A stretch of 64,000 bases of DNA from Glutamicibacter soli (lineage in GTDB: Bacteria; Actinomycetota; Actinomycetes; Actinomycetales; Micrococcaceae), in assembly GCF_003309065.1 (NCBI RefSeq), contig NZ_POAF01000002.1, forward strand, positions 558,001 to 622,000. The letters run 5' to 3'. Each line of letters starts with the position of its first letter. Position 1 is the first letter of the stretch. Of the stretch, positions 21,462-37,138 are shown piece after piece. The notes under the pieces were generated by a model. The model did not search any database and was not told the origin of the DNA. It was given only the letters and a program-made list of their open reading frames with translations. The translations under genes were made by a program, and so were the position numbers.

Positions 21462-24400
21462 GTGTTCTTTTTGAACCAGCACCTCGTATACTCGGCCAGC
21501 GACCTGTCAATCGCCGTCGACTGCCAGTACCAGTCGCTGTTCCTGCTGGACGTCCGGCTGGAACGCCGAGAGAAGCCGGACGCCGTCACCGACGAAATGC
21601 TGCACCGCACCGCGGTGCTCGGCGACGTGCACGAACACCGCGTCCTGGACCAGCTTGTGCAGAGATACGGCGAGTACAACCCGCAGACCGGGACCGGGGT
21701 CAAGAAATTCACCGACCGGCCGGAGATGACCGAGCAGTCCCTGCGCCGGGCCCATGAGCAGACGCTGGCAGTGCTGCGCAGCGGTGCCGACGTCATTTTC
21801 CAGGCGACCTTCTTCGACGGGTCATTTGTCGGCTTCGCCGACTTCCTGGTCCGCCAGGAAGACGGATCCTGGGCCGTGTGGGACACGAAGCTTGCCCGCC
21901 ATGCCCGCGTCAGCGCGCTGCTCCAAGTCGCAGCCTACGCGGACCAGATGATGGCCGAGGGCATCGAGGTCCACCCCCACACCACGCTGGTGCTGGGCGA
22001 CGGCACCCATTCGTCCCATCGCATCGATGAGATCCTGCCGGTCTTCCGCGCGCAGCGCGACCACTTCCTGTCCATGGTGCGCGAGCACCAGGCCTCCGGC
22101 CAGCCCGTGGCCTGGGATTCGGACCAGCTGCGCCTGTGCGGCCGATGCAGCCTGTGCGCCGAACAGGTGGAGCAGACCCGCGACCTGCTGCTGGTCGCCG
22201 GCATGTCCATGGCCCAGCGCGAAAAGCTGCGCCGCCAGGGCATTTCCACAATCGACCAGCTCGCCGCGCTGGAGCCCGATCCCAAGACCTCGCTGGCCCG
22301 CGCCGTGGAGCAGGCCCGCATGCAGGTGGGCGCCGACCCGTTGGCCACCACCATCCAGAACGTGTCCTACCGGGTGAAGTCGGACCAGACCATCACCAGC
22401 CTGCCCAACCCCGACCAGGGGGACATCTTCTTCGACTTCGAGGGCGACCCGCTCTACCAGGAACCGCTGGATGATTCATGGGGCCTGGAATACCTGTTCG
22501 GAGTGATCGAGAACGACACCGGTAAACCGGTGTTCCGTCCGTTCTGGGCGCACAGCCGGGCCGGCGAACGCCGGGCATTCCTCGACTTCATCGAGTACGT
22601 GGAACAGCGGCGCCGCCGCTTCCCGGGCATGAAGATCTACCACTACGCGGCCTATGAGAAGAGCGCCCTGCGCAAGCTCTCCCAGGTCCACATCGCCGGG
22701 GAGGACGAGGTGGACCAGTGGCTGCGCGAGAACCTGCTGATCGACCTGTACGACACCGTGCGCAATTCGCTGGTCGTCTCCACCCGCTCCTACTCGATCA
22801 AGAAGCTTGAACCGCTGTACATGGGCGAGCACCTGCGCTCGGGCGATGTCACCGACGCCGGCGCCTCGGTGGTCGCCTACGCCCAGTACATGCAGGCCCG
22901 CGATTCAGGCGCCGATGCCGAGGCGCAGCAGGTGCTGGATTCCATTGCCGACTACAACGAATACGACTGCCTCTCGACGCTGCGCCTGCGCGACTGGCTG
23001 CTGTCCCTTGTCGATTTCCAGCCGCACACGCTGATTCCGGACTCGGCTGTGCCCGAAGCCGTCGAGGAGTACGAGCCGGCCCCGGAGGAGCTGCGCCTGC
23101 AGGAGTACCTGGCGGCGCTGCCCGAGGGCGAGGCGCTCGGCGCGGACGACCGCGCCATCGCGATGGTCGCCGCCGCGACAGGCTACAACCGGCGTGAGAA
23201 GAAGCAGTACTGGTGGGACCACTTCGACCGGCTCAGCAAAAACATGGACGAGTGGGCGGACGTGCGCGGGGTCTTCATGGTGGATTCGGCGCAGGTGCTC
23301 GAAGACTGGCACAAGCCCACGCCGCGGGCCCGCACCGTGACCAGGATTTCAAGGCTGCACGGCACCCTGGCCGAGGGCTCGCTGCTCTCCCCCGGCTCCG
23401 GGGTGTTCGCCATGTTCGCCGGCCCGCTGCCCGAAGGCATGGAGGTCGACGACAAGGCGCTGCGCGGCGGCGCCTTCAATGCGACGGTGGTGGAGGTGGG
23501 CGAGGGCTGGATCACCATCGCGGAGAAGACCAGCGGCAAGATCCCCGAATACGGGGCCTTCCCGGTCGCGCTCACCCCCGACAAGCCCATTGCCACCAAG
23601 AGCATCGACGAGGCGCTGGCGCAGCTCGCCATCGCGGTGGGATCCACTGTCCCGGTGCTGCCGCAGCAGCCGGGCATCGACATCCTGCGCCGCATCCCGC
23701 CACGGCTGAAGACCCTGGCCGCGCCGGTGGAGCCGGCCGTGGTGGACGGCAGCGCCCAGGTCTACCAGGCCGTGGTGCGCACGCTGCAGGACCTGGACAA
23801 CTCGTACCTGGCGGTGCAGGGCCCTCCGGGCACCGGCAAGACGTTCGTCGCCTCCCACGTGATCCGCGAACTGGTGGATGCCGGATGGAAGATCGGTGTC
23901 GTGGCGCAGTCCCATGCGGTGGTGGAGAACGTGCTGCGCAAGGCCATTTCCGCCGGCGTCGACCCGGATCTGGTGGCCAAGGAGGTCAAGCACAAGGACC
24001 CGGTGCCGTGGCACGGCACCGACAAGGAGGACCTGGAGCGCGTGCTGTCCGGCCGGGACGGCGCGCTGATCGGCGGCACCGCCTGGACCATGACCGGATC
24101 CAGGGTGCCGGCCGGCAGCCTCGATCTGCTGGTGATCGACGAGGCCGGGCAGTTCTCGCTGGCCAACACCCTGGCGGTGTCCCGGGCGGCCCGCAACCTG
24201 CTGCTGCTCGGCGACCCGCAGCAGCTGCCGCAGGTGACCCAGGGCTCGCATCCGCAGCCGGTGGACGAATCGGCGCTCGGCTGGCTGTCCAACGGCCGCC
24301 CGGTGCTGCCCCGGGAGCTGGGCTACTTCCTGGCCGCCTCGTGGCGCATGCACCCGGCCTTGTGCGCCAAGGTCTCCGCGCTGAGCTACGACCACCAGCT

Positions 24401-24920
24401 GTTCTCCGCGCAGGCCGCCGGCCAGCGCAGCCTGGCCGGCAGCGCCGCCGGGGTGGAAACCCGGCTGGTGGAGCACCGCGGGAACACCGTCAGCAGCGCG
24501 GAGGAAGCCGCGGAAATCGTCGCGCTGGTGCGCGAGCATCTGGGCATGCAATGGTCCCCGGGACAAAACGCCGCCTCCCGCACGCTGGCGGCCTCGGACA
24601 TCCTGGTGGTCGCCGCCTACAACGCGCAGGTCAACATGGTGCGCGAGGTCCTGGAATCAGAGGGGCTCGGGGACGTGCGGGTCGGCACCGTGGACAAGTT
24701 CCAGGGGCAGGAGGCCCCGGTGGTGCTGATGAGCATGGCCTGCTCCAGCGCGGCCGACGCGGCGCGCGGCATCGATTTCCTGCTCAACCGCAACCGGGTC
24801 AACGTGGCGATCTCCCGCGGCCAGTGGAAAGCGGTCATCGTGCGCAGCGACCGGCTGACTGACTACCTGCCCTCCAGCCCGGCGGCCCTATCCCAGCTGG
24901 GCGCCTTCATGGCGCTCTAG
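21462..24920 (+). CDS. TM0106-type RecB nuclease fused to SF1 helicase
   Basis: A 1152-residue DNA-processing protein in three parts. Residues 1-270: RecB-type nuclease (SFVGFADFLVRQ, WAVWDTKLAR, LLQVAAYAD) ending in a Cys cluster (CGRCSLC). Residues about 300-530: RNase H/DEDD-like exonuclease fold (DIFFDFEGDP, KIYHYAAYEKSAL, DYNEYDCLSTLRLRDW). Residues about 770-1150: SF1 helicase with Walker A GPPGTGKT (787-794), LLVIDEAGQ (Walker B), LLLGDPQQLPQV (motif III), VDKFQGQEAPVV and NVAISRGQWKAVIV (motifs V-VI). The start is GTG 21462 with GCGAAAGG upstream. It stands alone, with no Cas or restriction neighbours. The biological role of this fusion family is not established; DNA repair or defence are possible. 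Confidence 0.9.
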   Translation: MFFLNQHLVYSASDLSIAVDCQYQSLFLLDVRLERREKPDAVTDEMLHRTAVLGDVHEHRVLDQLVQRYGEYNPQTGTGVKKFTDRPEMTEQSLRRAHEQTLAVLRSGADVIFQATFFDGSFVGFADFLVRQEDGSWAVWDTKLARHARVSALLQVAAYADQMMAEGIEVHPHTTLVLGDGTHSSHRIDEILPVFRAQRDHFLSMVREHQASGQPVAWDSDQLRLCGRCSLCAEQVEQTRDLLLVAGMSMAQREKLRRQGISTIDQLAALEPDPKTSLARAVEQARMQVGADPLATTIQNVSYRVKSDQTITSLPNPDQGDIFFDFEGDPLYQEPLDDSWGLEYLFGVIENDTGKPVFRPFWAHSRAGERRAFLDFIEYVEQRRRRFPGMKIYHYAAYEKSALRKLSQVHIAGEDEVDQWLRENLLIDLYDTVRNSLVVSTRSYSIKKLEPLYMGEHLRSGDVTDAGASVVAYAQYMQARDSGADAEAQQVLDSIADYNEYDCLSTLRLRDWLLSLVDFQPHTLIPDSAVPEAVEEYEPAPEELRLQEYLAALPEGEALGADDRAIAMVAAATGYNRREKKQYWWDHFDRLSKNMDEWADVRGVFMVDSAQVLEDWHKPTPRARTVTRISRLHGTLAEGSLLSPGSGVFAMFAGPLPEGMEVDDKALRGGAFNATVVEVGEGWITIAEKTSGKIPEYGAFPVALTPDKPIATKSIDEALAQLAIAVGSTVPVLPQQPGIDILRRIPPRLKTLAAPVEPAVVDGSAQVYQAVVRTLQDLDNSYLAVQGPPGTGKTFVASHVIRELVDAGWKIGVVAQSHAVVENVLRKAISAGVDPDLVAKEVKHKDPVPWHGTDKEDLERVLSGRDGALIGGTAWTMTGSRVPAGSLDLLVIDEAGQFSLANTLAVSRAARNLLLLGDPQQLPQVTQGSHPQPVDESALGWLSNGRPVLPRELGYFLAASWRMHPALCAKVSALSYDHQLFSAQAAGQRSLAGSAAGVETRLVEHRGNTVSSAEEAAEIVALVREHLGMQWSPGQNAASRTLAASDILVVAAYNAQVNMVREVLESEGLGDVRVGTVDKFQGQEAPVVLMSMACSSAADAARGIDFLLNRNRVNVAISRGQWKAVIVRSDRLTDYLPSSPAALSQLGAFMAL

Positions 24921-24958: not shown

Positions 24959-26230
24959 TCAGCGTGCCGGGTCGATGACCTTCTTGACGTCGAAGAACTC
25001 GGAGAGCACCGGACGGTCCCCGCGCAGTTCCTTGTCGAACTGCAGCCCGTCGATGTTGATGCGCATCTGGCGCTGGTAGTCGTCGGTCTGCTGCATCCAC
25101 GCGCGGATGGTGCCGTCCACGCCGTAGAAGTACTTGAATCCCTGGTTTTCCAGGTATTCGTACCGGCTTCCGGAGTACTTGGCGGTGCGGGCGATGTCCG
25201 AGCCGAACGGGTAGATCAAATGCTCGGTCTTGCCCACGATCGGCTCGACTTCTTCCTTCCACAGCTTCATGTCCCGCTTGAAGCGCGCCATGTCCACGGT
25301 GCCGGTGGAAATGTGGCCCCAGGAGTGCGAGGCGAAGATCCAGCCCTCGTCCTTCATGGCGTCCGCGACCTCGGTCGCGGCCTTCTGGTCCTTCTTGATG
25401 TTCTTGTTTTCCGGGTACTGGCTGGCCGAGGTGCGGTAGCCGAATTCGCCGTTGTACCCGGTCATGGCCACGAGGCCGCGGGCGTCGCGGTAGGAGAAGT
25501 CAGGATGCTCCTCGATGAAGTCGTCGAGCATGGTGGTCACGTCGTAGGCTCCCACATGCGTTTTGCCCTTGGCATCGGTGTATTCGTTGCGGACCTTGCC
25601 GTCCTTGTCCACCAGCAGCTTGCTCGCGAACCCGTCGCCGTCCATGTACTCGTAGTAGCTCACGTCATCCACCGACAGCACCAGCGGCTGCTTGCCCTTG
25701 GGAAGCATGATCTTGCGGTAGGCCATGTTCCCCTTCTTGTCCGGGCCGGCGAAGTCCGCGGGGTTCACCAGCACGAAGTCCCGGGCGTAGAGCTCCTCGA
25801 TGATCGCGGTGAACTCCTTCTGGGTCACCATGTAGTCCTTGTAGCCCTGGGCTTCGCCGTCCCCGTCGAAGGCGCGGTCGGTGTCGATGACCAGCGAGTG
25901 GAAAAACAGGTGCGGGATCTGGTTCGGCTTCTCCCAGGCCACGGTCTGGGACTTTTCCTCTTCCAGCCCCGGGACCAGTTTCTGCAGTTCCTCGCTGGGG
26001 TCCTTGGAAGCCATCTTGATGGCGGCCGGGTAGTCGTAGCCGTCGGCCAGCCGGTTGATCTCCGCCTTGGCCTCGGCCACGCGGGCTTCTTCCTGCGCGG
26101 CCTGGGCGGAGGCGTCCGGGGCGGCCGACGCGTCGTTCGCCGCGTCCTGCGGGTTGGGTTGCTCACTACTGCATCCGGCGAGCGCCGCCACCAGGATCCC
26201 TGCGGCCAGCAACCGTGCGAACTTCATCAT
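24959..26230 (-). CDS. Polysaccharide deacetylase-family lipoprotein
   Basis: A 423-residue exported lipoprotein. The lipobox LAGC places lipidated Cys20 after a short hydrophobic signal, followed by an Ala/Gln/Asp-rich linker. The NodB-type fold shows LVLSVDDVSYYEYM (catalytic Asp and metal Asp), FASHSWGHIS (H-x3-H metal pair) and LIYPFGSD. The family removes acyl groups from sugar polymers in the envelope. The insert between the first two motifs (about 215-290) is long. ATG 26230 has GGAGG 6 nt upstream; the frame extending to 26284 is not needed. Divergent from jetA. The target glycan is unknown. Confidence 0.87.
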   Translation of the reverse strand: MMKFARLLAAGILVAALAGCSSEQPNPQDAANDASAAPDASAQAAQEEARVAEAKAEINRLADGYDYPAAIKMASKDPSEELQKLVPGLEEEKSQTVAWEKPNQIPHLFFHSLVIDTDRAFDGDGEAQGYKDYMVTQKEFTAIIEELYARDFVLVNPADFAGPDKKGNMAYRKIMLPKGKQPLVLSVDDVSYYEYMDGDGFASKLLVDKDGKVRNEYTDAKGKTHVGAYDVTTMLDDFIEEHPDFSYRDARGLVAMTGYNGEFGYRTSASQYPENKNIKKDQKAATEVADAMKDEGWIFASHSWGHISTGTVDMARFKRDMKLWKEEVEPIVGKTEHLIYPFGSDIARTAKYSGSRYEYLENQGFKYFYGVDGTIRAWMQQTDDYQRQMRINIDGLQFDKELRGDRPVLSEFFDVKKVIDPAR

Positions 26231-26410
26231 CTTCGACCTCCATGCCCGAAACGCGCCGAAAACCAGCAGATACGGCGTTGTCATCGTCTCGTTCCGACAC
26301 TACACAGGCAGCCCTGCCAAAAACACCGAATGGCAGTTCATTACTCCAATCGATACAAAACTGGCATCTGCCGCGCAGGGGGCGCACATCTGGCGTGAAG
26401 CCGGATGCTC

Positions 26411-26451: not shown

Positions 26452-27912
26452 ATGCAGCCCTCGCACCGCGCGAATAGCCTGTGGATCCAGTCCCAGCAGT
26501 TCAGAAGCTCGGCGGCGTACCGGCTCTTAACGGCCCAGCCCTGGGCGGTCGCCTTCATCCGCGCCGAGTTCACCGCGGACCGCCCGCGCATCGCGCTGGA
26601 ACTGTTCCACGCTTCGCTGGATTCCTTCCTGAAAACCGCCCGCACGAGCGACGAGCAGATCCCGCAGACCTACAGTGCGCAGGACTTCGCCGAAACCTGG
26701 GTCAAGCAGGGATTGCTGGCCCGTCCGCTGATCGACGGGCGCTTCGTCTACGAGCCCAGCGCCCAGACCCTGCGCACGCTGCGCTTCCTAGCCGATTTCT
26801 CCACCGACGACTCGCACCTGAACTCCTCGCGCCTGAACACGCTGCTGTCCTCGCTGGAATCCCTGGCCCACGAAACCGACCCGGATCCCGAGGCGCGCAT
26901 CCGCGCGCTGGAATCCCAGATCGCCCAGCGCCAGGCGCAGATCGACCAGCTGCGCTCCGGCACCGATCCGGCGGTGCTCTCCCGCACCACCGCGCTGTCC
27001 GCGGCCCGCTCGGTGCTGGATCTGGCCGCGAGCCTGCCGGCGGACTTCCGCCGCATGCGCGACGGGGTGCAGGACATGCTGCATTCGCTGCGCGAGGGAA
27101 TCCTGGACGCCTCCACCGCCAAGGGCGTGGCGGTGGGCCAGGTGCTGGAAGCCGACCGGCAGCTGCGCTCAACCGCCGAGGGCGAGACCTTCCGCGGCTT
27201 CACCGAGTTCCTGAATTCCCCCGAAGCCCAGCAGCGTTTCCGCGCGGCGCTGGCCGAGGTGCTGGAGCGCGACTTCGTGGACGACCTGGACACCCCCGAA
27301 CGCCAGATCCTCACCAACCTGCTGCGCGAGCTGCGCCGCCAGGCCGCCGAGGTGCACACCTCCTACGGCAAGCTCTCCGAGTCCCTGCATGCCTTCGTGC
27401 AGTCCGAGGACTACAAGCAGGCCGAGTTGCTGCGCCGGGCGGTGCGCGAGGCGGAGGCCGCGATCAGCAAGTCCGCGGGTCTGAAGCCGCGCAGCGGGCT
27501 GGCCCCGCTGGAACTGTTCGCCCCGCAGTTCGTCACCCTGCACGGGCTGGGCATCTACGATCCCTCCGAGCACGTGGCCCCGCCGCCGCTGGCCCATGCC
27601 CCGGAATTCAGCGCCGAGGACATCGTGCGCACCCCCAGCACCCCGGAGGCCGACATGCCGGCGCTGCGCAGCGCGATCGCGCAGCGGCTGCGCGGCGCCG
27701 CGCAGGACCCGGTGCCGCTGGATCAGGTGTTCGCAGCCCTGCCCGCCGAGCACCAGCACCTGAATACCATCCGCGCGCTCATCGAGATCGGGCGCACCAA
27801 CGGCGAGAACCTCGACGAGTCGCAGCTGCTGGGCATCGAATTCACCCAGCTTGATGGTTCCACGCGCACCGCCTACCTGCCCGCCCTGAGCTTCACGAAG
27901 GAGCCGCTATGA
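26452..27912 (+). CDS. jetA: DUF3375 protein, JetA/MksF-like kleisin
   Basis: A 486-residue protein matching DUF3375: the N-terminus FRSSAAYRLLTAQPWAVAFI then DRPRIALELFHASLD and the coiled-coil ARIRALESQIAQRQAQIDQL are characteristic. JetA acts as the kleisin subunit linking JetC (SMC-like) heads with JetB in type I Wadjet/MksBEF complexes, which act on DNA by loop extrusion. It begins the jetABC operon and its TGA overlaps the jetB ATG (ATGA at 27909-27912). Its length is normal for the family. No frameshift or truncation is seen. Confidence 0.9.
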   Translation: MQPSHRANSLWIQSQQFRSSAAYRLLTAQPWAVAFIRAEFTADRPRIALELFHASLDSFLKTARTSDEQIPQTYSAQDFAETWVKQGLLARPLIDGRFVYEPSAQTLRTLRFLADFSTDDSHLNSSRLNTLLSSLESLAHETDPDPEARIRALESQIAQRQAQIDQLRSGTDPAVLSRTTALSAARSVLDLAASLPADFRRMRDGVQDMLHSLREGILDASTAKGVAVGQVLEADRQLRSTAEGETFRGFTEFLNSPEAQQRFRAALAEVLERDFVDDLDTPERQILTNLLRELRRQAAEVHTSYGKLSESLHAFVQSEDYKQAELLRRAVREAEAAISKSAGLKPRSGLAPLELFAPQFVTLHGLGIYDPSEHVAPPPLAHAPEFSAEDIVRTPSTPEADMPALRSAIAQRLRGAAQDPVPLDQVFAALPAEHQHLNTIRALIEIGRTNGENLDESQLLGIEFTQLDGSTRTAYLPALSFTKEPL

Positions 27913-28601
27913 CCTACACCGACTCATATGCCGCACCGATCACCGATCCGCTGTTCGACGGGGATACCGGCAGCTTTCCGCTCCCGCTGCGCCAGCTGCT
28001 GGTGCGGCTGCTGCGCGGCCCGTACCTCGACGGCTCCGTGGACGCCGCGGCCTGGCAGCTGCTGCTGGATTCGCAAGGCGCTGTCACCAAGTACTTCTCG
28101 GAGATCTTCCTGGCGCTGAGCCTGGACATGGAGCGCAAGATCGCCATGCTGGCGCCGGTGGACATCGAGCAGGCGCACACCGCGCCGATCGCCCCGCGCC
28201 GCCCGCTCAAGCGCGACGAGACCCTGCTGGCCCTGCGGCTGCGGCTGCTGCTGGAGCAGCAGTCGGGCACCGGGGCCGATGCGGTGATCTCCCGCGCGGG
28301 CATGCACGAGATCTTGGCCGAGCACCGCGCCGCCGCCGACCGCGACGACAAGCGCTTCGCCGAGTCCTGCGATGCGGCCATCGCCCGGCTGGGCTCGCTG
28401 CGGCTGCTGACCAATACCGAGCTGGCCGACGAGTTCCGCATTTCCCCGGCGCTGGCCATGGCCCTGCCCTTGGCCTCCATCCAGGACATCCCGCGCTACA
28501 TCGCGGCGATCGACGCCAACGAAGGCGTGCTTAACCTCGCCGAGGCGGAGCCCGACGAGTCCGACGCATCCGAACAGACCGACGCACTGGTGCAGGAGTA
28601 G
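27909..28601 (+). CDS. jetB: DUF4194 protein, JetB/MksE-like subunit
   Basis: A 230-residue winged-helix (KITE-type) protein of the DUF4194 family: LPLRQLLVRLLRGPYLDGS at the N-terminus, LKRDETLLALRLRLLLEQQS in the middle and LLTNTELADEFRISPAL near the end fit the family. The partner JetA/JetC genes confirm the role. It would bridge the kleisin and the DNA in the SMC complex. Translation is coupled to jetA by the ATGA overlap, and jetC starts 3 nt after its stop. The last 25 residues are acidic (EAEPDESDASEQTD), probably a disordered tail. Confidence 0.88.
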   Translation: MTYTDSYAAPITDPLFDGDTGSFPLPLRQLLVRLLRGPYLDGSVDAAAWQLLLDSQGAVTKYFSEIFLALSLDMERKIAMLAPVDIEQAHTAPIAPRRPLKRDETLLALRLRLLLEQQSGTGADAVISRAGMHEILAEHRAAADRDDKRFAESCDAAIARLGSLRLLTNTELADEFRISPALAMALPLASIQDIPRYIAAIDANEGVLNLAEAEPDESDASEQTDALVQE

Positions 28602-28604
28602 CCG

Positions 28605-31600
28605 ATGAGCATTGAAATGACGCTGCCGCTGGGCGGCGAGATCAACCCCGGCCAGCACCGCCTCTCGCGCGTCCAGCTGGTGAACTGGGGAACCTTCCAC
28701 GGGCTGCACGACCTGGGGGTGGACCGCGCCGGAACGCTGGTCACCGGCCATCCCGGCGTGGGCAAGTCCACGCTCTTCGACGCCATGGGCCACGTGTTCT
28801 TCGCCAGCCCGCGGCTGAACGAGTCGGCCAACGACGCGGCCACCCGCGAGGACCGCCGCACCACCTATTCCTACATGCGCGGACGCAAGTTCAAGACCAG
28901 CTCCGGCACCGTGTTCCAGCGCCCCGGCGCCACCTGGAGCGCCGTGCTGCTCAGCTACCAGGACGGCCTGGGCAACACCGTCAGCGCCGGCGCGGTCTTC
29001 GACCTGCCGGATGCCGGGCTGGAGGGCCAGGTGTCCAAGCACTACCTGTTGTGCGAGGGCGCGCTGGACATCGCCGAGCTGGAGAACCACGGCCCGCGCC
29101 GCTTCACGGTCTCCTCGCTGTCCAAGGCGCTGGCCCCGGCCGAGGCCTTCGACACCCACAAGGCGTTCATCGACCGGCTGCGCCGCCGCCTGGGCGTGGA
29201 AAGCGACAAGGCCTTCGCCCTGCTGCGCACCCTGCAGAACGGCAAGGGCCTGGCCAAGGGCGTGAACCAGTTCTTCCGCCACGAGGTGCTGGAGGAACCT
29301 GCCACGCTGAAGGCCGCCGCCGCCGCGGTGGAGGACTTCGCGCACCTGCGCGGCATCTACCGGCAGCTGGACACCGCCCGCGCGCAGCGCGACGTGCTGG
29401 CCGCCGTGCCGGAGCAGGACCGGGCCTACCGCTCGCTGGCCGAACGGATCGGCGAGACCCGCCAGCTGCTGGAAACCGAGCTAGCGCAGCTCGAAACGCA
29501 GGTGCGCCAGCTGGTGCTGCGCAACGACCTGGCGGCGCACCGCGCCGAGCATGCGCAGCTCACGGCCAAGCAGGCCGAGCTGGGCGAACGCAAGGCCAAG
29601 CTCGATGACCAGCTGCAGTCGCTGGAGGCCGCGCACGATTCGGCCGGCTCCGCCTCGCTGATGCTGCTGGAACGCGAAGCCGACGCCGCCCGCAAGGCGC
29701 TGAGCGAGAAGGAGCGCGTGCTGCACGCCCTGCAGGAGCAGGCCGACCAAGCCGGGCTGGCCTTCGAATTCAGCGCCACCGGGCTGGACGAGCTGCGTGC
29801 CAACGCCGCCCGCACCCTGCAGCAGCTGGACTCCATCACCAAGGACGCGCAGACCGTTGAATACGAGGCCATGGCCTCGCTGGTCAACCTGCGCAAGCGC
29901 GCTGACACGCTGGCCGAGCAGATCCGCTCCTACCAGCGCCGCAGCACCAACATCGACGACCGCTCGGTCGCGGCCCGGCGCGCCATCGCCTCGGCCTGTT
30001 CGCTGCGCGAGGAGCAGCTGCCCTTCGCCGGCGAGCTGATGGACGTCTCCGCCGACTGCGCCATGTGGCGGCTGGCCGCGGAGAAGGCGCTGCACTCGGT
30101 GGCCCGCACCCTCCTGGTGCCCGGCGAGTTCCTGGCCCAGGTCACCCACGCCATCGACAAGCTCGACGGGCTGGGCCGGGTGCGCTGGGCGGACATCTCG
30201 CTGGCCCCGCGCGAGGTCGAGGCCGGCCCGGCGGACCTGGTCACCAAGCTGGACTTCGCCCCGGGCGAGGCCGGCGCCTGGCTGCGTGCAAAGATCACCT
30301 CCGACTATCCGCTGGCCTGCGTGGAGAACGACGCGGCCATGCACATCCATCCCAAGGCCATCACCCCGGCCGGCACCATCAAGACCGGCACCGGCATCTT
30401 CGAGCGCGACACCCGCACCCTGCCGGCCTCCGAATACCTGCTGGGCTTTACCAACGAGGCGAAGATCTCCGAGCTGCAGTCCAAGGCCGCGCGCCTGGAA
30501 ATCAAGGTGCAGGACGCCAAGAAGGCGGCGGATGACCGCAGCGCCGCCAAGGCCAAGGTGCTGGCCAAGGCACAGCTGCTCGGCGCGCTGATCGAGGACG
30601 AGCGCACCTTCGCGCAGCTGGATGCGGCCCCCGCGCTCCAGGCGCTGCGCCGCAGCGAGCAGAAGCTGGGCGACGCGCTCACGCTCTCCGGGGATTCCTC
30701 CCGGGTCCGCGCGCAGATCGAGGCCGCCAAGGCCGAGTCCGAGCAGCTGGTCGGAGACCTGGCGCTGGTCCGCTCCCGCGCCGGCGAGCTGGGCCTGCAG
30801 ATCGAGCGGGCCGAAAAGGTCCTGGCCGCCGGCCCCGAGGACAGCGGCGACTGGCTGGAGCGGGTCCCGGCGGCGCTGCGCGGCCACGAGCTGCTCGGCG
30901 GATTGCTGGAAACCATCGGCGCCGGCAGCAGCCCCGCCTCCGAGGAGATCTCCAGCGCCTTCGCCGAGGTCAAGCTGCAGCTGGCGGGCCAGCTGAGCGA
31001 GCTGACCGCGCAGCGCCAGGAAATCGGCGGCGCGCTGAGCGAGACCTTCCGCCGTTTCGCCCGCGAATTCGGCGGCTCGCACGCGCAGACCCACGGCACT
31101 TCCCCGGAGGCCGCGGAGCACTATGCCCAGCTGCATGAGCAGATCGTCGCCGACGGCCTGCCGCACCACGAGGCGCAGTTCCGCGAATACTTCGCCAACC
31201 GCTCCTACGAACGTTTCAGCGACCTATTGCAGCTGCTGGACGAGGAGCGCCGGATGATTTCCGAGCGCATCAAGCCGCTGAACCAGATCCTCGGCGAGGT
31301 GGCCTTCGAGCACGGATCGCTGCTGCGCCTGGAGGTGGAAAGCTCCATCCCGGTGGAGGCCGCCACCTTCCGCAAGGACCTGAAGAGCGCGCTGCAGGAC
31401 GCCTACACCACCAAGGACGAGGGCACGCTGGCCAGCTCCTACCAAGCGCTGGAGGCGCTGGTCTCGGCGCTGAGCGATCCCGGCCTTTCGGCCTGGCGTT
31501 CAACGGTGCTTGACGTGCGCCAGCATGTGGTGATCAGCTGCAACGAGCACAAGCCGAACGGCGAGGTGGAGACCGGGCTGGAACCTGGCACCCTTTCCGG

Positions 31601-31928
31601 CGGCGAGGGGCAGCGCTTCACCTCGTTCATCATGGGCGCCGCGCTGGCCTACCAGCTCGGCTTCGCCACCGCCGGGTTCACGTCCTTCGGCACGGTGATG
31701 ATCGACGAGGCGTTCATCCAGGCCAACTCCGAATATGCCGCGGCGGGCATCCGCGCGCTGCAGGAATTCGGTTTCCACCTGGTGCTGGCAGCCCCGGAGG
31801 ACAAAATCGATTTGAGCCGCCACCTGGGATCCATCACGGACATCATCAAGCATCCGGGATCCAACATCTCGGGCTTCGTCACCACCGGCCGCTCCCCGGC
31901 CATGGCCACCACCATCACGCTGCGCTAG
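28605..31928 (+). CDS. jetC: SMC-like ATPase, JetC/MksB
   Basis: A 1107-residue ATPase. Walker A GHPGVGKST at 48-56, ABC-type signature LSGGEGQ at 997-1003 and Walker B VMIDEAF at 1031-1037 bracket long coiled coils (about 260-480 and 620-1000, rich in Ala, Glu, Leu, Gln) and a central hinge-like region (about 480-620). This is the layout of JetC/MksB, the motor of type I Wadjet complexes. All catalytic motifs look intact, so the protein should be active. In complete systems a jetD/mksG nuclease gene accompanies these three; here jetC is followed within 20 nt by a strong terminator and then an unrelated gene on the other strand. Confidence 0.92.
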   Translation: MSIEMTLPLGGEINPGQHRLSRVQLVNWGTFHGLHDLGVDRAGTLVTGHPGVGKSTLFDAMGHVFFASPRLNESANDAATREDRRTTYSYMRGRKFKTSSGTVFQRPGATWSAVLLSYQDGLGNTVSAGAVFDLPDAGLEGQVSKHYLLCEGALDIAELENHGPRRFTVSSLSKALAPAEAFDTHKAFIDRLRRRLGVESDKAFALLRTLQNGKGLAKGVNQFFRHEVLEEPATLKAAAAAVEDFAHLRGIYRQLDTARAQRDVLAAVPEQDRAYRSLAERIGETRQLLETELAQLETQVRQLVLRNDLAAHRAEHAQLTAKQAELGERKAKLDDQLQSLEAAHDSAGSASLMLLEREADAARKALSEKERVLHALQEQADQAGLAFEFSATGLDELRANAARTLQQLDSITKDAQTVEYEAMASLVNLRKRADTLAEQIRSYQRRSTNIDDRSVAARRAIASACSLREEQLPFAGELMDVSADCAMWRLAAEKALHSVARTLLVPGEFLAQVTHAIDKLDGLGRVRWADISLAPREVEAGPADLVTKLDFAPGEAGAWLRAKITSDYPLACVENDAAMHIHPKAITPAGTIKTGTGIFERDTRTLPASEYLLGFTNEAKISELQSKAARLEIKVQDAKKAADDRSAAKAKVLAKAQLLGALIEDERTFAQLDAAPALQALRRSEQKLGDALTLSGDSSRVRAQIEAAKAESEQLVGDLALVRSRAGELGLQIERAEKVLAAGPEDSGDWLERVPAALRGHELLGGLLETIGAGSSPASEEISSAFAEVKLQLAGQLSELTAQRQEIGGALSETFRRFAREFGGSHAQTHGTSPEAAEHYAQLHEQIVADGLPHHEAQFREYFANRSYERFSDLLQLLDEERRMISERIKPLNQILGEVAFEHGSLLRLEVESSIPVEAATFRKDLKSALQDAYTTKDEGTLASSYQALEALVSALSDPGLSAWRSTVLDVRQHVVISCNEHKPNGEVETGLEPGTLSGGEGQRFTSFIMGAALAYQLGFATAGFTSFGTVMIDEAFIQANSEYAAAGIRALQEFGFHLVLAAPEDKIDLSRHLGSITDIIKHPGSNISGFVTTGRSPAMATTITLR

Positions 31929-31945
31929 CTGCGCGGCACAGCACG

Positions 31946-31995
31946 GGGCCCGCAGGACGTTCCGCCACGCATCCGGCAAAGCGTCCTGCGGGCCC
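31946..31995. terminator. Strong terminator closing the jet operon
   Basis: Perfect 14-bp repeat GGGCCCGCAGGACG (31946-31959) and CGTCCTGCGGGCCC (31982-31995), 22-nt loop, between jetC and a convergent gene. It marks jetC as the last gene of the operon. Confidence 0.85.
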
Positions 31996-32014
31996 TTGCC
32001 TGCCTTCGGCGTGG

Positions 32015-32359
32015 CTACTGCATCTGTTCCCGGATCCGCTGCGGGATCATGCTCACCCGGGTGACCAGCGTCTGCGGGGCGAACTCGGGATCGATGCATT
32101 CGTCCCAGTATTCCAGGTGCTTCTCATCGAGCCAGTGCGCCGAGTCGCGGACCTCGGTACCGCCGTGGCCCTGGATGCTGTACCAGTACAGGTATTCGGC
32201 CCCGTCCAGCGTCTCGCTGAAAATCGTCTCGACGTACATCCGCTCCCCCTCCAGGGTTTCCAGCACCGCCGGCATATTGGAATTCAGGAACTGCAGCCAT
32301 TGGTCGACTCGTTCGGTTTTGCCTGGTTTCACGCGAAAACGCATCAGCTCAATGTTCAT
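32015..32359 (-). CDS. DUF6176 family protein
   Basis: A 114-residue protein of unknown function. MNIELMRFRVKPGKTERVDQ at the start, then ETIFSETLDGAEYLYWYSIQ and the later DSAHWLDEKHLEYWDEC, fit the DUF6176 pattern, probably a dimeric alpha/beta-barrel (monooxygenase-like) fold. No signal peptide or cofactor motif is visible. It is a single gene, convergent with jetC and separated from it by a terminator. Confidence 0.75.
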   Translation of the reverse strand: MNIELMRFRVKPGKTERVDQWLQFLNSNMPAVLETLEGERMYVETIFSETLDGAEYLYWYSIQGHGGTEVRDSAHWLDEKHLEYWDECIDPEFAPQTLVTRVSMIPQRIREQMQ

Positions 32360-32447: not shown

Positions 32448-34955
32448 CTACTCGGTCGCCAGCCCCTGGACCGGGGAGAGCTTCGCGGCGCGGCGTCCCG
32501 GGGTCACCGAGGCCAGCAGGGCGGCTACGATGCTGACTACCAGCACCAGGGCCAGCTGCAGCCACGGGATCTCGTAGGACATCTCGCCGACCGCAGAGAG
32601 CGTGGCATGCGCGCCGAGCAGTCCGTAGACCACGCCGAGCACCAGACCCAGCAGGGCCGCCACGCCGCCGATCAGCACGGCTTCCTGGGCCAGCATGGCC
32701 CGCAGCTGCTTCTTCTTCAGGCCCAGGGCCCGCAGCAGCGAGTTCTCGCGGGTGCGTTCGAGCACCGAGAGGCTGAGCGTGTTGGCCACGCCGATCAGCG
32801 CGATCAGCACCGCCACAGCCAGCAGGGCGGACACGATGGCCAGCAGCACGTCGATGACCTGGGAGAACATGGCGTTCTGCACCACGCCGCCGTCGATCAT
32901 GTACGACTCGACGTTGGCCACATCGGCGATCTGCTCAACCAGGGCGGTGATGTCGGCGTTGGACAGGTCGGGGGCCGCCTTGATCAGCACGCCGCCGTAC
33001 TCGTTCTCCGAGTCGGCCAGCTTCAACGATTCCAAGGTGTCCTTGGTGACCAGGTCCTGGTATAGCGCCGCGGAGGACACCTTGACGTCCAGTTCCCTGC
33101 CGCCGACGGTCAGCTTCTTGGGCTGTTCTTCTGTGCCGGTGTTGAAGCGGATGATCTGCCCGTCCGCCGGCACGATGCTCTGGTCCAGCACGGTCTTGGA
33201 GAAGCCCTGCGGATCGACGCCCATCAGCTGTACCGGGGCTTCGTCCTCCCGGCCCTTGATTTCCGCGGTGCCGGCCACGAAGGTCGAGGTTTCCTCGATG
33301 CCGTCCAAGGAGGCCAGCTCGCGGGCCAGTTCCTGGGTCTTCGCGTCGTCGACCTGGCGCTCGTACAGCGAGAGGGTCAGATCCACGGGGAACTCTCCGG
33401 CCAGGGAAGTGTTAAGGCTGGACTTGGCCGTCTGTCCGCCGACCATGATCATGGAAACCAGGGTGACTCCGATCAGCAGGGCCGTGGCGGTGGCGGTGGT
33501 GCGGCCCGGGTTGCGCACTGCGTTCAGGGCGGCGAGCTTGCCAGCCACCGAGCGCCCGGCCACCAGCTTGCCGATGCCGAAGACGCTGGCCGGGACGAAC
33601 AGCGATGCGAGCATCAGGATGCCCGGGAAGGAGAGCAGGCCGCCGAGGAAGGCGATGGGCAGCGAACCGTCGATCGCGCCCCAGGCCAGCAGCCCGGCGC
33701 CGGCCAGGGCCAGCAAGATCCCGATGACGATGCGCAGCTTGCCGGCGCGGTTTTTCACGCTCGCCGCGTCGAAGGGACGCAGGGCCGCCAGCGGGGCGAG
33801 CTTCATGGCGCGGCGGGCCGGCAGGCTCGCGGCGATGACGGTCATTGCGATGCCCACGACCACCGGGATCACCAGGCCCTTGGCATCCAGCGCCAGCGTG
33901 GCGTAGGACAGGCTCGGCACCATCACGTGCAGCAGCTGGATCAGGCCTGCCATCAGCGCGACGGCCAGGGCCACGCCGATCGCCGAGGCGACGATGCCGA
34001 TGACCAGGGCCTCGATGAGCACGGAGCTGCGGATCTGCTTGCGCTTGGCGCCCAGGGTGCGCAGCAGCGCCAGTTCGCGGGTGCGCTGGGCGATCACCAC
34101 GTTGAAGGTGTTCACCACGACCAGGCCGGTGACCACCAGGGCGACCAGGGCGAACACCAGCAGCACCACGGTGAGCTGGTCGGTGCCGTCCGTCAGCATG
34201 GCGACGTCCTTGATGACCTTTTCATCGGCGGTCAGTACCGAGACGTCCCTCATCTGGTGCTCTGCGAAGTACGCGGCCAGCGCCTGCTGGGCGGCCGGGA
34301 GGGAGTCCTTGGCATCGATCACGATGTTCTGGAAGGAACCGGAATCGCCGGCGATCTTCGTCCAGACGGATTCCGGCAGGCCCACCATGGCGTAGCCGGA
34401 GAGCTGCGGATCGGTGCTGGTGCGCTGGATGCCCACCACCTTCATGTCCTTGGTGGACTCGGAGGTGGTCAGGCCGACGGTGTCCCCCACCGAGACCTTC
34501 ATGCGATCGGCGTGCTCGTCGTCGAGGATGACCTCGTCGGCGTTCAGCGGGGCACGGCCTTCGAGCAGCTCCATGCCGCCGAGGTTCTGTTCGGCGGACA
34601 CCGGCTGGAGCAGCACGCCATAGCCGTCGTCCGCGGTGTACAGTTCACCGGTTTCGTAGGCGGTGCCGTAGGCGGTGGAGATCTCCGGGAGCTTGCGGAT
34701 GTCCTCGACCTGTTCCATGGCCAGTTCGGTGTACTCGAAGTCGGGATCGTCCTCCGGCACCAGTTCCCAGTCCTGGAAGGCGACCAGGTCGGCGTTCTTG
34801 TAGGTGTCGCCCAGCGAGTTCTTCAAGGTCGCGCGGGTCGAGGTGTTAACGGCCAGGGTGGCCGCGAGGAAGGCGGTGCCGATGGCGACCGCCAGGACCA
34901 CGGCGATATAACGCCGTGCATAGGTCTTGATATTGGCGAGGGCTACGTGCAGCAT
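32448..34955 (-). CDS. ABC transporter permease with two FtsX domains
   Basis: An 835-residue membrane protein of the MacB/FtsX class. It has an N-terminal membrane helix (YIAVVLAVAIGTAFLAATLA), an extracellular domain of about 200 residues, three FtsX-type helices (around 265-400), a middle pair with a second extracellular domain, and a C-terminal FtsX set (around 690-835). Signature FtsX segments are RTRELALLRTLGAKRKQIRS and ERTRENSLLRALGLKKKQLR. Such exporters move lipids, peptides or drugs, or transmit mechanical force. The ATG lies 3 nt after the stop of the ATPase gene, with GGAG inside that gene's end. No dedicated regulator is adjacent; substrate unknown. Confidence 0.9.
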   Translation of the reverse strand: MLHVALANIKTYARRYIAVVLAVAIGTAFLAATLAVNTSTRATLKNSLGDTYKNADLVAFQDWELVPEDDPDFEYTELAMEQVEDIRKLPEISTAYGTAYETGELYTADDGYGVLLQPVSAEQNLGGMELLEGRAPLNADEVILDDEHADRMKVSVGDTVGLTTSESTKDMKVVGIQRTSTDPQLSGYAMVGLPESVWTKIAGDSGSFQNIVIDAKDSLPAAQQALAAYFAEHQMRDVSVLTADEKVIKDVAMLTDGTDQLTVVLLVFALVALVVTGLVVVNTFNVVIAQRTRELALLRTLGAKRKQIRSSVLIEALVIGIVASAIGVALAVALMAGLIQLLHVMVPSLSYATLALDAKGLVIPVVVGIAMTVIAASLPARRAMKLAPLAALRPFDAASVKNRAGKLRIVIGILLALAGAGLLAWGAIDGSLPIAFLGGLLSFPGILMLASLFVPASVFGIGKLVAGRSVAGKLAALNAVRNPGRTTATATALLIGVTLVSMIMVGGQTAKSSLNTSLAGEFPVDLTLSLYERQVDDAKTQELARELASLDGIEETSTFVAGTAEIKGREDEAPVQLMGVDPQGFSKTVLDQSIVPADGQIIRFNTGTEEQPKKLTVGGRELDVKVSSAALYQDLVTKDTLESLKLADSENEYGGVLIKAAPDLSNADITALVEQIADVANVESYMIDGGVVQNAMFSQVIDVLLAIVSALLAVAVLIALIGVANTLSLSVLERTRENSLLRALGLKKKQLRAMLAQEAVLIGGVAALLGLVLGVVYGLLGAHATLSAVGEMSYEIPWLQLALVLVVSIVAALLASVTPGRRAAKLSPVQGLATE

Positions 34956-34958
34956 CGA

Positions 34959-35708
34959 CTACTCCGCCAGCGAGGCCAGGGCCTCGGTCACGGTGGCCAC
35001 GGTCGGGTCATCCAGCTGGCCCACGATGCTGCCGTCCTTCATCAGCAGCACGGTGTCCGCGTAGGAGGCGGCGGCCGGGTCGTGGGTGACCATGATGATG
35101 GTCTGGCCCATTTCGCGGGTCGAGGTGCGCATCAGCGAGAGCACCTCGGCCCCGGTGCGGGAGTCCAGGTTGCCGGTGGGCTCGTCGCCGAAGACCACCT
35201 CGGGGCGGGTGAGCAGGGCGCGCGCCACGGCGACGCGCTGCTGCTGGCCGCCGGAAAGCTCGTGCGGCTTGTGGCTCAGGCGGTCGCGCAGGCCCAACGC
35301 GTCGATAACGGTGTTGAACCATTCGCGGTCGTGGCTCTTGCCGGCCAGCGACAGCGGCAGCAGGATGTTGTCCTTGGCGTTGATGGTCGGGACCAGGTTG
35401 AAGGACTGGAATACGAAGCCGATCTGCTCGCGGCGCATCATGGTCAGCTCGTCGTCGTTCAGGTTCATCAGGTCGCGGCCGCCGATGATGATCTCTCCGG
35501 CGTCCGCGGTGTCCAGCCCGGCCAGGCAGTGCATCAGGGTGGACTTGCCGGAGCCCGAGGGGCCCATGATGGCGGTGAAGCGGGAACGGGCAAAGGCGAC
35601 GTCTACTGTCCGCAGCGCCTCCACGCGGGTGCTGTCATGTCCGTAGCTTTTGGTCAGACCTCGGGCGCAGACCGCGTATTCGGTAAGGGGCAGAGTTTCA
35701 GATGTCAT
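34959..35708 (-). CDS. ABC transporter ATP-binding protein, MacB/LolD type
   Basis: A 249-residue nucleotide-binding subunit. Walker A GPSGSGKST near residue 48, Q-loop IGFVFQSFNLVPTI, signature LSGGQQQRVAVARAL, Walker B VVFGDEPTGNLD and the H-loop MVTHDP are all present. GNLDSRTGAEVL after Walker B is typical of the MacB/LolD/FtsE group. It energises the permease encoded immediately downstream. ATG 35708 has a GGA-type site. Confidence 0.93.
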   Translation of the reverse strand: MTSETLPLTEYAVCARGLTKSYGHDSTRVEALRTVDVAFARSRFTAIMGPSGSGKSTLMHCLAGLDTADAGEIIIGGRDLMNLNDDELTMMRREQIGFVFQSFNLVPTINAKDNILLPLSLAGKSHDREWFNTVIDALGLRDRLSHKPHELSGGQQQRVAVARALLTRPEVVFGDEPTGNLDSRTGAEVLSLMRTSTREMGQTIIMVTHDPAAASYADTVLLMKDGSIVGQLDDPTVATVTEALASLAE

Positions 35709-35770
35709 GTTCCAAGACTATAAAAGGCCAAGAGAAACCCGTATCGGCCGACAGGCCGGTCTTGGATGCC

Positions 35771-35798
35771 GCCGGCTCATACCTGGGTATGAGCCGGC
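35771..35798. terminator. Hairpin between the ABC ATPase and CDF genes
   Basis: Perfect 12-bp stem GCCGGCTCATAC (35771-35782) and GTATGAGCCGGC (35787-35798) with a 4-nt loop. It lies downstream of the CDF gene and upstream of the ABC genes, all on the minus strand, so it probably ends the arsR-CDF transcript. Confidence 0.7.
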
Positions 35799-35835
35799 AT
35801 CCTGGACGCTGGTTCCGCGGGTGCGCGCCGCCCGG

Positions 35836-36762
35836 TCAGCACCCTGTATGGCGCTCGGTGACGCTGTGCGATTCCGGTTCGATCTGGAAGGTCGAGTGCT
35901 CGATGCTGACCTCAAAGTGCGCTGCCACGCACTGCTGCAGGTTGCGCAGCAGGCCCCCGGCAGCGTCCGCGTCGAACATCTCGTTCTTGACCACCACGTG
36001 CGCGGTGAGCACCGGCAGGTTGGAGGCGATCTGGCTGGCGTGCAGGTCGTGCACGGCGAGCACGCCCGGCTGGCCTTCCAGGTGGGTGCGCACCGCGCCC
36101 AAGTCCAGGCCGCGCGGGGTGGATTCGAGCAGGATGTGCGTGGTTTCCTTCAGCAAGGTGGCGGCGCGGGGCACGATCAGCGCGCTGATCAGCAGCGCGG
36201 CCACGGAGTCGGCGCGCATCCAGCCGGTCAGCGCGATCACCACGGCCGCGACGATCACGGCGACCGAACCCAGCGCGTCATTGACGACTTCCAAGAAGGC
36301 CGCGCGCATGTTCAGGTTGTGGCCCCGTCCCCCGGCGATGATCAGCATGGAGGCGATGTTGCCGAGCAAACCGATGATGCCGAAGACCAGCAGCCCGGCG
36401 GGCTGGACCTCCGGCGGGTCGAAGAGCCGCTGGACCGCGTCCACCGCGGCGTAGATGCCCACGGCCAGCAGCAGCGCCGACTGCAGGGTCGCGGAAAGCA
36501 CCTCGGCCCGGCGGAAGCCCCAGGTGCGTTTCATGGTGGGCTTGCGCATGATCAGGTTGGCAGCGGTCAGCGCCATCAGCAGCCCGGCGGTGTCGGTGAG
36601 CATATGCGCCGCGTCCACCAGCAGGGCCAGCGAGTTGGTCATGATCGCGCCGATGACCTCCGCGACCAGGATGCTGGCGGTGATGCCCAGCGCCCAGGCC
36701 AGCCGGGTCCGGTTGGTGGCGGAATGGTCGTGGGAATGCGCGTGGGAGTGGTCGTGGCCCAT
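35836..36762 (-). CDS. Cation diffusion facilitator, divalent metal exporter
   Basis: A 308-residue CDF protein with six membrane helices and a cytosolic C-terminal domain. The His-rich N-terminus (MGHDHSHAHSHDHS) binds metal. LLVDAAHMLTDTAG in helix 2 and FLEVVNDALGSVAVI in helix 5 hold the His/Asp transport site (HxxxD and NDxxxS pattern), typical of Zn/Co/Ni exporters. The start is ATG 36762, only 4 nt after the ArsR stop, so the two form one operon and the metal probably derepresses it. The frame upstream to 36801 is not needed. Confidence 0.93.
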   Translation of the reverse strand: MGHDHSHAHSHDHSATNRTRLAWALGITASILVAEVIGAIMTNSLALLVDAAHMLTDTAGLLMALTAANLIMRKPTMKRTWGFRRAEVLSATLQSALLLAVGIYAAVDAVQRLFDPPEVQPAGLLVFGIIGLLGNIASMLIIAGGRGHNLNMRAAFLEVVNDALGSVAVIVAAVVIALTGWMRADSVAALLISALIVPRAATLLKETTHILLESTPRGLDLGAVRTHLEGQPGVLAVHDLHASQIASNLPVLTAHVVVKNEMFDADAAGGLLRNLQQCVAAHFEVSIEHSTFQIEPESHSVTERHTGC

Positions 36763-36766
36763 GGAG

Positions 36767-37138
36767 CTACACCCCGCCTTCCGGAGAGGGGTGGCCCTCA
36801 TGCCACTGGTGGTTGCGGTTGGCCGGGCGCCCCAGGCGCAGCGCCTGGCTCTGCACGGCGGCCAGGTCCTGGGCGTGGCTCAGGGAGTACAGGCTCGCGC
36901 GGCCCTGGCTGCGGACGCTGACCAGGCCGCTGTCCTTCAGGCAGGAAAGGTGCGCGCTGACGGTGCTCTGCGCCAGGCCCAGATGCTCGGTGAGGTCCTT
37001 GACCTTGTGCTCACCGGTTTTCAGGTGCTCAAGGATCAATAGCCGCGTGGGGTCGGCCAGCGCATGGAACAGCGCCGCGAGCTGCAGGCGCTGCTGGGCC
37101 TCTTCCATTGCATCGATCTGTGACTCTATTATCGCCAT
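36767..37138 (-). CDS. ArsR family metal-responsive repressor
   Basis: A 123-residue winged-helix repressor. ALFHALADPTRLLILEHL, VKDLTEHLGLAQSTVSAHLS and LVSVRSQGRASLYSL are the usual ArsR core. No cysteine pair of the arsenic-sensing type is present; a His-rich tail (RNHQWHEGHPS) suggests zinc, cobalt or nickel sensing at the last helix (CzrA/NmtR manner). ATG 37138 overlaps the palindrome 37128-37149 and has no ribosome site, so a leaderless start is likely (TATCAT box 6 nt upstream). It precedes the CDF gene it presumably controls. Confidence 0.9.
   Translation of the reverse strand: MAIIESQIDAMEEAQQRLQLAALFHALADPTRLLILEHLKTGEHKVKDLTEHLGLAQSTVSAHLSCLKDSGLVSVRSQGRASLYSLSHAQDLAAVQSQALRLGRPANRNHQWHEGHPSPEGGV

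Follow-up and report, generated by a model that had tools for sequence, protein, structure and literature searches.

A JetABC operon without JetD in Glutamicibacter soli probably encodes a nuclease-free, MksBEF-like second condensin

The 64,000-nucleotide stretch of Glutamicibacter soli DNA analysed here (contig NZ_POAF01000002.1, positions 558,001 to 622,000; hereafter the window) contains a compact plus-strand operon of three open frames, jetA, jetB and jetC, which belong to the Wadjet type I anti-plasmid family and are not followed by a gene for the nuclease JetD. The first gene, jetA (26452..27912), encodes a 486-residue MksF-like kleisin that matched DUF3375 in Pfam (PF11855, 1.9e-108). 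It overlaps by 4 nt with jetB (27909..28601), whose 230-residue product, an MksE-like KITE subunit, matched DUF4194 (PF13835, 1.4e-33) and, far more weakly, the MksE model PF21980 (27.4 bits, cut-off 27, 5e-6). After a gap of 3 nt follows jetC (28605..31928), encoding a MukB-like SMC ATPase of 1107 residues that matched AAA_29 and SbcC_Walker_B and carries a Walker A motif (GHPGVGKS), a signature motif (LSGGE) and a Walker B motif (VMIDEAF). The top PADLOC matches of the three proteins were JetA1 (769.6 bits), JetB1 (282.6 bits) and JetC1 (1072.2 bits); frames, Pfam and PADLOC thus bear out an earlier note on this DNA, which had described an intact jetABC operon with genes overlapping or 3 nt apart. 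Among solved structures, JetC matched JetC chains from the PDB (8dk2 at 2.1e-63 and 8as8 at 1.6e-56) and JetA matched Wadjet JetA chains over residues 81–315 (1.3e-13) and 30–299 (5.4e-13), together with a chaperonin row at E 0.03 that we took as chance, while a sequence search with JetB found no significant relative (best E 0.071). JetC scored 39.1 bits with the canonical SMC model SMC_prok_B, below its cut-off of 567.35; a canonical SMC, at 867.3 bits with the same model, is encoded elsewhere in the genome.

In all 40 JetD-bearing loci that we scored, jetD is found where jetC ends. The window has at this place an 86-bp intergenic stretch (31929..32014), which holds an inverted repeat (31946..31995) between jetC and a converging DUF6176 gene. 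The repeat is an imperfect hairpin with 21-nt arms (86%) and includes a perfect 14-bp core (31946–31959 and 31982–31995). The earlier note had called this core a terminator beginning 18 nt after jetC; the core is real, but it begins 17 nt past the stop codon, and a terminator role is plausible only, with no run of T after the repeat.

To search for JetD we used three models on the whole genome. Neither JetD_C (PF09983) nor DUF3322 (PF11795) had a single match there, and both matched Corynebacterium glutamicum among 14 control genomes. A profile built from 11 actinobacterial JetD proteins found nothing in the genome at E≤1, although it matched each of the two control relatives, G180 and G085, at E<1e-117, neither of them having contributed a JetD protein to the profile; it also found nothing in two single-contig genomes of the same genus (G112 and G127). 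The whole-genome search with DUF3322 and DUF2220 models that the earlier note had proposed therefore returned no match, and its observation that JetD is missing beside the operon and elsewhere in the window extends, within the reach of the three models, to the entire genome, with the controls matched. The genome is rated 100% complete, and about 75 kb separate the operon from the nearer end of its contig, which is 664,512 bp long. With three models negative, the contig ends far away and G112 and G127 likewise lacking the gene, we ruled out a jetD dropped by the assembly; the two findings that the earlier note had named as able to overturn it, a jetD gene at another site of the genome and a misassembly between 31928 and 32015, were thus sought and not found.

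We then compared the locus across samples of 245 genomes from the family, 297 from the order and 246 from the phylum. In the family sample, DUF3375 occurred in 141 of the 245 genomes and JetD_C in 62; 59 genomes had both, and 82 of the 141 had DUF3375 without JetD_C (lists compared by eye). The 150 listed DUF3375 places, all of at least 297 bits, fell into two kinds. A score of at least 376 bits was reached at 56 places, of which 53 had JetD_C no more than 12 kb away; below 376 bits were 94 places, of which one, the second copy in G238 (L109), had JetD_C. This locus and L062 (G010) fall outside the clade of the window's operon in the JetC tree described below, and the remaining 92 low-scoring places, 39 of which were put in the tree, had no JetD_C nearby. 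JetD was likewise absent from all 39 clade loci placed in the tree and from the best 80 named loci, in 69 of which the sequence read continued for at least 1.5 kb past jetC; these 80 include Glutamicibacter, Paeniglutamicibacter, Arthrobacter, Pseudarthrobacter, Zhihengliuella and Zafaria, and the nearest named JetC among the matches listed is that of Glutamicibacter protophormiae (95%). The comparison of relatives suggested by the earlier note thus showed a locus that is JetD-less throughout the sampled clade, reflecting neither a local loss nor an assembly error.

JetD-bearing Wadjet operons are patchy within the family and occupy loci different from that of the JetD-less operon, and 29 of 93 genomes had a low-scoring place together with a separate JetD-linked operon. 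Within the window's own genus, a low-scoring place without JetD was present in 16/16 sampled genomes, and JetD_C was detected in five of the 16, four times beside a second jet operon and once, in G095, as fragments only. In the order sample, the PADLOC JetA1 model that marks the clade (PDLC00447) scored at least 688 bits at 15 places, all in the same family and none linked to JetD, and the next score was 224 bits; within our samples, the clade is restricted to the family. Outside the clade, 59 of 120 order places had no JetD, a figure that does not consist entirely of real losses, as the contig of one of them (L131) stops directly after jetC. In the phylum sample DUF3375 was rare (9/246 genomes; JetD_C in 15/246).

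Some single loci deserve mention. Partial or orphan JetD_C matches (G095:C2:62933-63189, G211:C12, G168:C1 and G226:C1) were seen in genomes in which DUF3375 places are present too, which suggests that they are remnants of lost Wadjet systems. In one genome of the genus (G191), the jetC frame of a JetD-bearing operon (L091, on C3) appears interrupted, its largest piece being 673 residues compared with about 1130; the JetD-less jetC of the same genome (L053) is full-length. A record titled Sporosarcina beigongshangi (L191, NZ_JADHDY010000019.1) holds an Arthrobacter-like JetD-less locus with a JetC 53% identical to that of the window, and is probably misnamed or mixed.

A tree of 97 JetC rows, which did not include L091 (interrupted jetC) or L113 (no JetC match), placed 39/39 clade rows on one branch with a Shimodaira–Hasegawa-like approximate likelihood ratio test (SH-aLRT) support of 100. 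Ten genera are represented in the clade, whose stem measures 0.97 changes per column, and the JetD-bearing rows from this family are interspersed with those of other families. Long branches meeting were flagged in this tree, none of them within the clade. In a second tree, computed under a mixture model with phylum-level rows (15 of the 39 clade rows, 11 of 19 other JetD-less rows, 38 of 39 JetD-bearing rows, leaving out L141, and 10 new ones), the clade stayed together, again with a support of 100; both were quick trees with SH-aLRT as their support. The genus labels within the clade require nine changes for ten genera, which is the minimum, compared with 19 changes of family label for ten families among the 39 JetD-bearing rows. 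Because of this difference, the trees indicate that the clade is inherited nearly vertically and that JetD-bearing Wadjet is mobile.

Two further groups of JetD-less loci, from families f11 and f22, sit on separate long stems, so JetD loss may have been repeated in Actinomycetota; an approximately unbiased (AU) test, however, did not reject a single JetD-less branch joining the clade and f11 (p 0.102). The f22 group is a pair of JetABC loci (L232 and L233) on a stem of 2.54, and the f22 genome G589 has a separate JetD-bearing operon (L235) as well, as is seen in the window's own family.

The motor is intact throughout the clade. JetC is full-length in 39/39 loci, with the Walker A (GxxGVGKS) and Walker B (VM[IM]DEAF) motifs present in every one of them; a simple signature pattern matched 30 of the 39, and the residues S-G-G-E are invariant in a 12-row alignment. 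In JetD-bearing JetC proteins, by comparison, Walker A reads G[ST]GKS where it was found (38/40), the clade having V at the S/T position, and the simple signature pattern matched 13 of 40, as LSGGQ, with Q in at least 80% at the aligned column. A signature ending in SGGE is a feature of canonical SMC proteins. In eight of the 11 own-genus loci, the median ratio of non-synonymous to synonymous substitutions (dN/dS; Nei–Gojobori method, NG86, excluding pairs with an undefined dS or a dS of at least 3) was 0.112 for JetA (25 of 28 pairs), 0.172 for JetB (24 of 28) and 0.161 for JetC (22 of 28), and no single value exceeded 0.29, 0.51 and 0.40, respectively, showing purifying selection on all three genes. 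To look for a lost JetD-binding surface, we also compared alignment columns between 39 clade rows and 39 JetD-bearing rows (78 in total, without L141), from which rows with over-long or short open reading frames (ORFs) were excluded (5 for JetA, 10 for JetB and 5 for JetC). Scattered fixed differences numbered seven in JetA, none in JetB and 20 in JetC, with ten of the 20 within JetC residues 901–1100; in this purely descriptive comparison, JetA showed no single eroded patch.

The surroundings of the operon are constant within the genus. Upstream lie a gene for a TM0106-family protein, combining a RecB/PD-(D/E)XK-like nuclease, an RNase H-like domain and an SF1-type helicase (21462..24920, plus strand, outside the operon), and, between this gene and jetA, a polysaccharide-deacetylase-like gene on the minus strand (24959..26284). 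Downstream, the minus-strand DUF6176 gene that converges on jetC (32015..32359) was detected in 6 of 11 own-genus loci, and is followed by FtsX-type permease, ABC ATPase and cation efflux (CDF) genes, also on the minus strand (32448..36801), which are kept downstream in the genus. The order TM0106 gene, deacetylase, jetABC, FtsX/ABC, CDF was found in 11/11 own-genus loci, one of which (L060) has an extra ORF between the TM0106 gene and the deacetylase; across genera, the flanks are shuffled. Six flanking proteins have ordinary Pfam assignments, and three of them also have partial or shared-domain PADLOC matches (the TM0106 protein to Mokosh and other helicase models, the permease to a CARF-LolE model, and the ABC ATPase to mads_3, mads_8 and other ATPase models), the other three having none. 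We read these matches as ordinary family resemblance, and not as signs of defence genes. A conserved fourth operon gene was also looked for and rejected: the sole neighbour cluster present in five genera, an aldo/keto reductase (Pfam, L068), varied in place and strand.

Taken together, these data suggest that the operon probably encodes a nuclease-free, MksBEF-like second condensin of the Wadjet type I/MksBEF superfamily, descended from type I Wadjet and likely to act on the chromosome without cutting it. By analogy with Wadjet, JetC dimers as the ATPase motor would assemble with the kleisin JetA and the KITE subunit JetB, and the complex would enlarge DNA loops through ATP hydrolysis. In Wadjet, according to a published account, dimeric JetABC extrudes the plasmid, and JetD activation follows when extrusion has been completed (PMC12647877); the engaged motor of the window would not cut, because JetD is missing. 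The operon would then be an old chromosomal gene set in part of the family, and JetABC would serve as an auxiliary condensin beside the canonical SMC, in a role comparable to that of Pseudomonas aeruginosa MksBEF. Of the three options raised by the earlier note (a housekeeping condensin, a nuclease in trans, or silencing of plasmids without cutting), the condensin is the one best supported by distribution and descent, because the JetC proteins form one branch, the operon is present in 16/16 genomes of the genus, the tree is genus-congruent, the flanks are kept within the genus, selection is purifying and a JetD-bearing operon can coexist in the same genome; its function is predicted from sequence.

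Several observations weigh against this interpretation. Some genomes of the family lack the operon, as any DUF3375 was found in 141/245 genomes, and a g8 locus (L072) groups with g32, so that descent does not strictly follow genus. NG86 estimates of dN/dS are noisy in such GC-rich genes, and single values reach 0.29–0.51. In C. glutamicum, MksB, acting with MksG, was reported to limit plasmids with no chromosomal role detected (PMC7083940), and a chromosomal role in an actinobacterium therefore cannot be assumed. Finally, conservation and vertical descent would also fit an anti-plasmid function that has become fixed and does not cut.

Such a non-cutting anti-plasmid system, in which JetABC would extrude and compact small circles and thereby silence them or disturb their partition, is possible, but we consider it rather unlikely. 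In its favour, the complex shares its motor parts with Wadjet, a system whose substrate is small circular DNA, and entrapment and loop extrusion have been described as compacting circular DNA and blocking viral gene expression (PMC10586767). The constant presence of the operon in the genus, its genus-congruent tree and its fixed flanks nevertheless argue against it. Defence genes are usually patchy and mobile. In addition, the flanking proteins are ordinary by Pfam with PADLOC matches that are partial or shared-domain, and a JetD-linked operon coexists with the JetD-less one in the 29 of 93 genomes noted above.

More doubtful is the proposal that another nuclease replaces JetD in trans, for which the upstream TM0106-family RecB-nuclease/helicase is the candidate. 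Typing of this gene covered 79 of the 94 listed low-scoring places, and in 39 of the 72 genomes holding both genes it lies upstream of the operon, on the same strand and within 10 kb (16/16 in g1, 14/15 in g23, 6/15 in g24, 2/3 in g18 and 1/1 in g30); no other upstream cluster held its place and strand in four genera. The two genes can be close together, with 119–157 bp between the TM0106 gene and the DUF3375 match in five g24 genomes and 35–86 nt between the TM0106 and jetA ORFs in three Arthrobacter loci (L184, L185 and L190). However, the gene lies elsewhere in g21 (0/5 upstream), g8 (0/9), g10 (0/6) and g7 (0/2), an opposite-strand gene intervenes in the window's own genus, the TM0106 gene is also present in genera, g3 among them, whose sampled genomes have no DUF3375 match, and the synteny is explicable by shared ancestry alone. 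Because all seven typed g32 genomes have jetABC without the helicase gene, it is not an obligatory partner, and together with its separate location in g8, g21, g10 and g7 this led us to reject it as an obligatory substitute for JetD. A version in which JetD was exchanged for a TM0106 helicase-nuclease fed with DNA by JetABC, and later lost or moved in several genera, is slightly more doubtful still; if true, it would make TM0106–JetABC a new SMC–effector pairing.

A decaying Wadjet remnant that recently lost jetD, an idea to which the missing JetD and the broken or partial Wadjet parts in relatives (the JetD fragments of G095 and the split jetC of L091) lend some colour, is largely refuted and very improbable given full-length JetC with intact Walker motifs at every clade locus, low dN/dS in the genus and a long-stemmed branch spanning ten genera. 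Equally improbable is a jetD lost from the assembly or used in trans from elsewhere in the genome, as the three models were negative in a complete genome, in G112 and G127 the profile found nothing, and the 80 named loci lack it; a nuclease in trans, in the form of JetD itself, thus finds no support, with 82 of the 141 DUF3375-bearing family genomes having no JetD_C.

If the condensin interpretation is correct, the motor of a plasmid-cutting defence system was converted in a common ancestor of many genera of the family into a lasting, non-cutting cell component, with possible parallel cases in two other families. The route by which a Wadjet system loses JetD and becomes a condensin would then be testable where both complexes share one genome. 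There is also a consequence for annotation: a PADLOC PDLC00447 score of at least 688 bits marks a branch with JetD in 0/15 sampled loci, and such loci may therefore be miscounted as Wadjet defence.

Compared with known systems, the operon shares with Wadjet type I (JetABCD, also MksBEFG or EptABCD) the jetA–jetB–jetC order, the overlapping or nearly touching gene ends and the Pfam and PADLOC families, and the proteins of the operon have no significant solved-structure relatives by sequence other than PDB JetC and JetA chains. It differs in that JetD is found neither in the operon nor in the genome, that its JetC is 24–31% identical (best BLAST segment) to those of 20 JetD-bearing operons of the same family, that the ATPase head of the clade has its own residues, for example GVGKS in Walker A and SGGE in the signature instead of G[ST]GKS and SGGQ, and that the clade is distributed near-vertically and not patchily. 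The JetABC loci of f11 (three rows, stem 1.19) and f22 (two rows) resemble it in having no JetD nearby and a long stem of their own, but their branches are separate from the clade, and in the four f11 loci read (L113–L116) other sequence intervenes between jetA and jetB. This spacer holds an MFS transporter in L113 and a sulphur transporter in L114; JetC is full-length in L114–L116, and the part of L113 that was read showed none.

We found no description of a family-wide JetD-less branch in the open-licence literature searched. In Paenarthrobacter lasiusi S21, Table 6 of a published genome study gives a JetABC-only Wadjet together with a second type I JetABCD (PMC11719660), and the former is printed there as a defence system, its missing JetD passing unremarked in that listing; as likened by description, this pair probably represents the same two kinds of locus. 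The C. glutamicum MksBEFG system is likewise an actinobacterial Mks complex beside SMC, but it includes MksG, which is reported to join the complex via MksF (PMC7083940), whereas MksG/JetD is absent from the window's operon. Nuclease-free Mks condensins are a known kind, and the precedent in description is P. aeruginosa MksBEF, which likewise has three subunits and no MksG and occurs beside a canonical SMC. The window's JetB departs from it in fitting DUF4194 far better than the MksE model; MksBEF has been described as organising the chromosome and guiding its segregation (PMC7485682, PMC10586767), a role comparable to the one we propose for the JetABC complex of G. soli.

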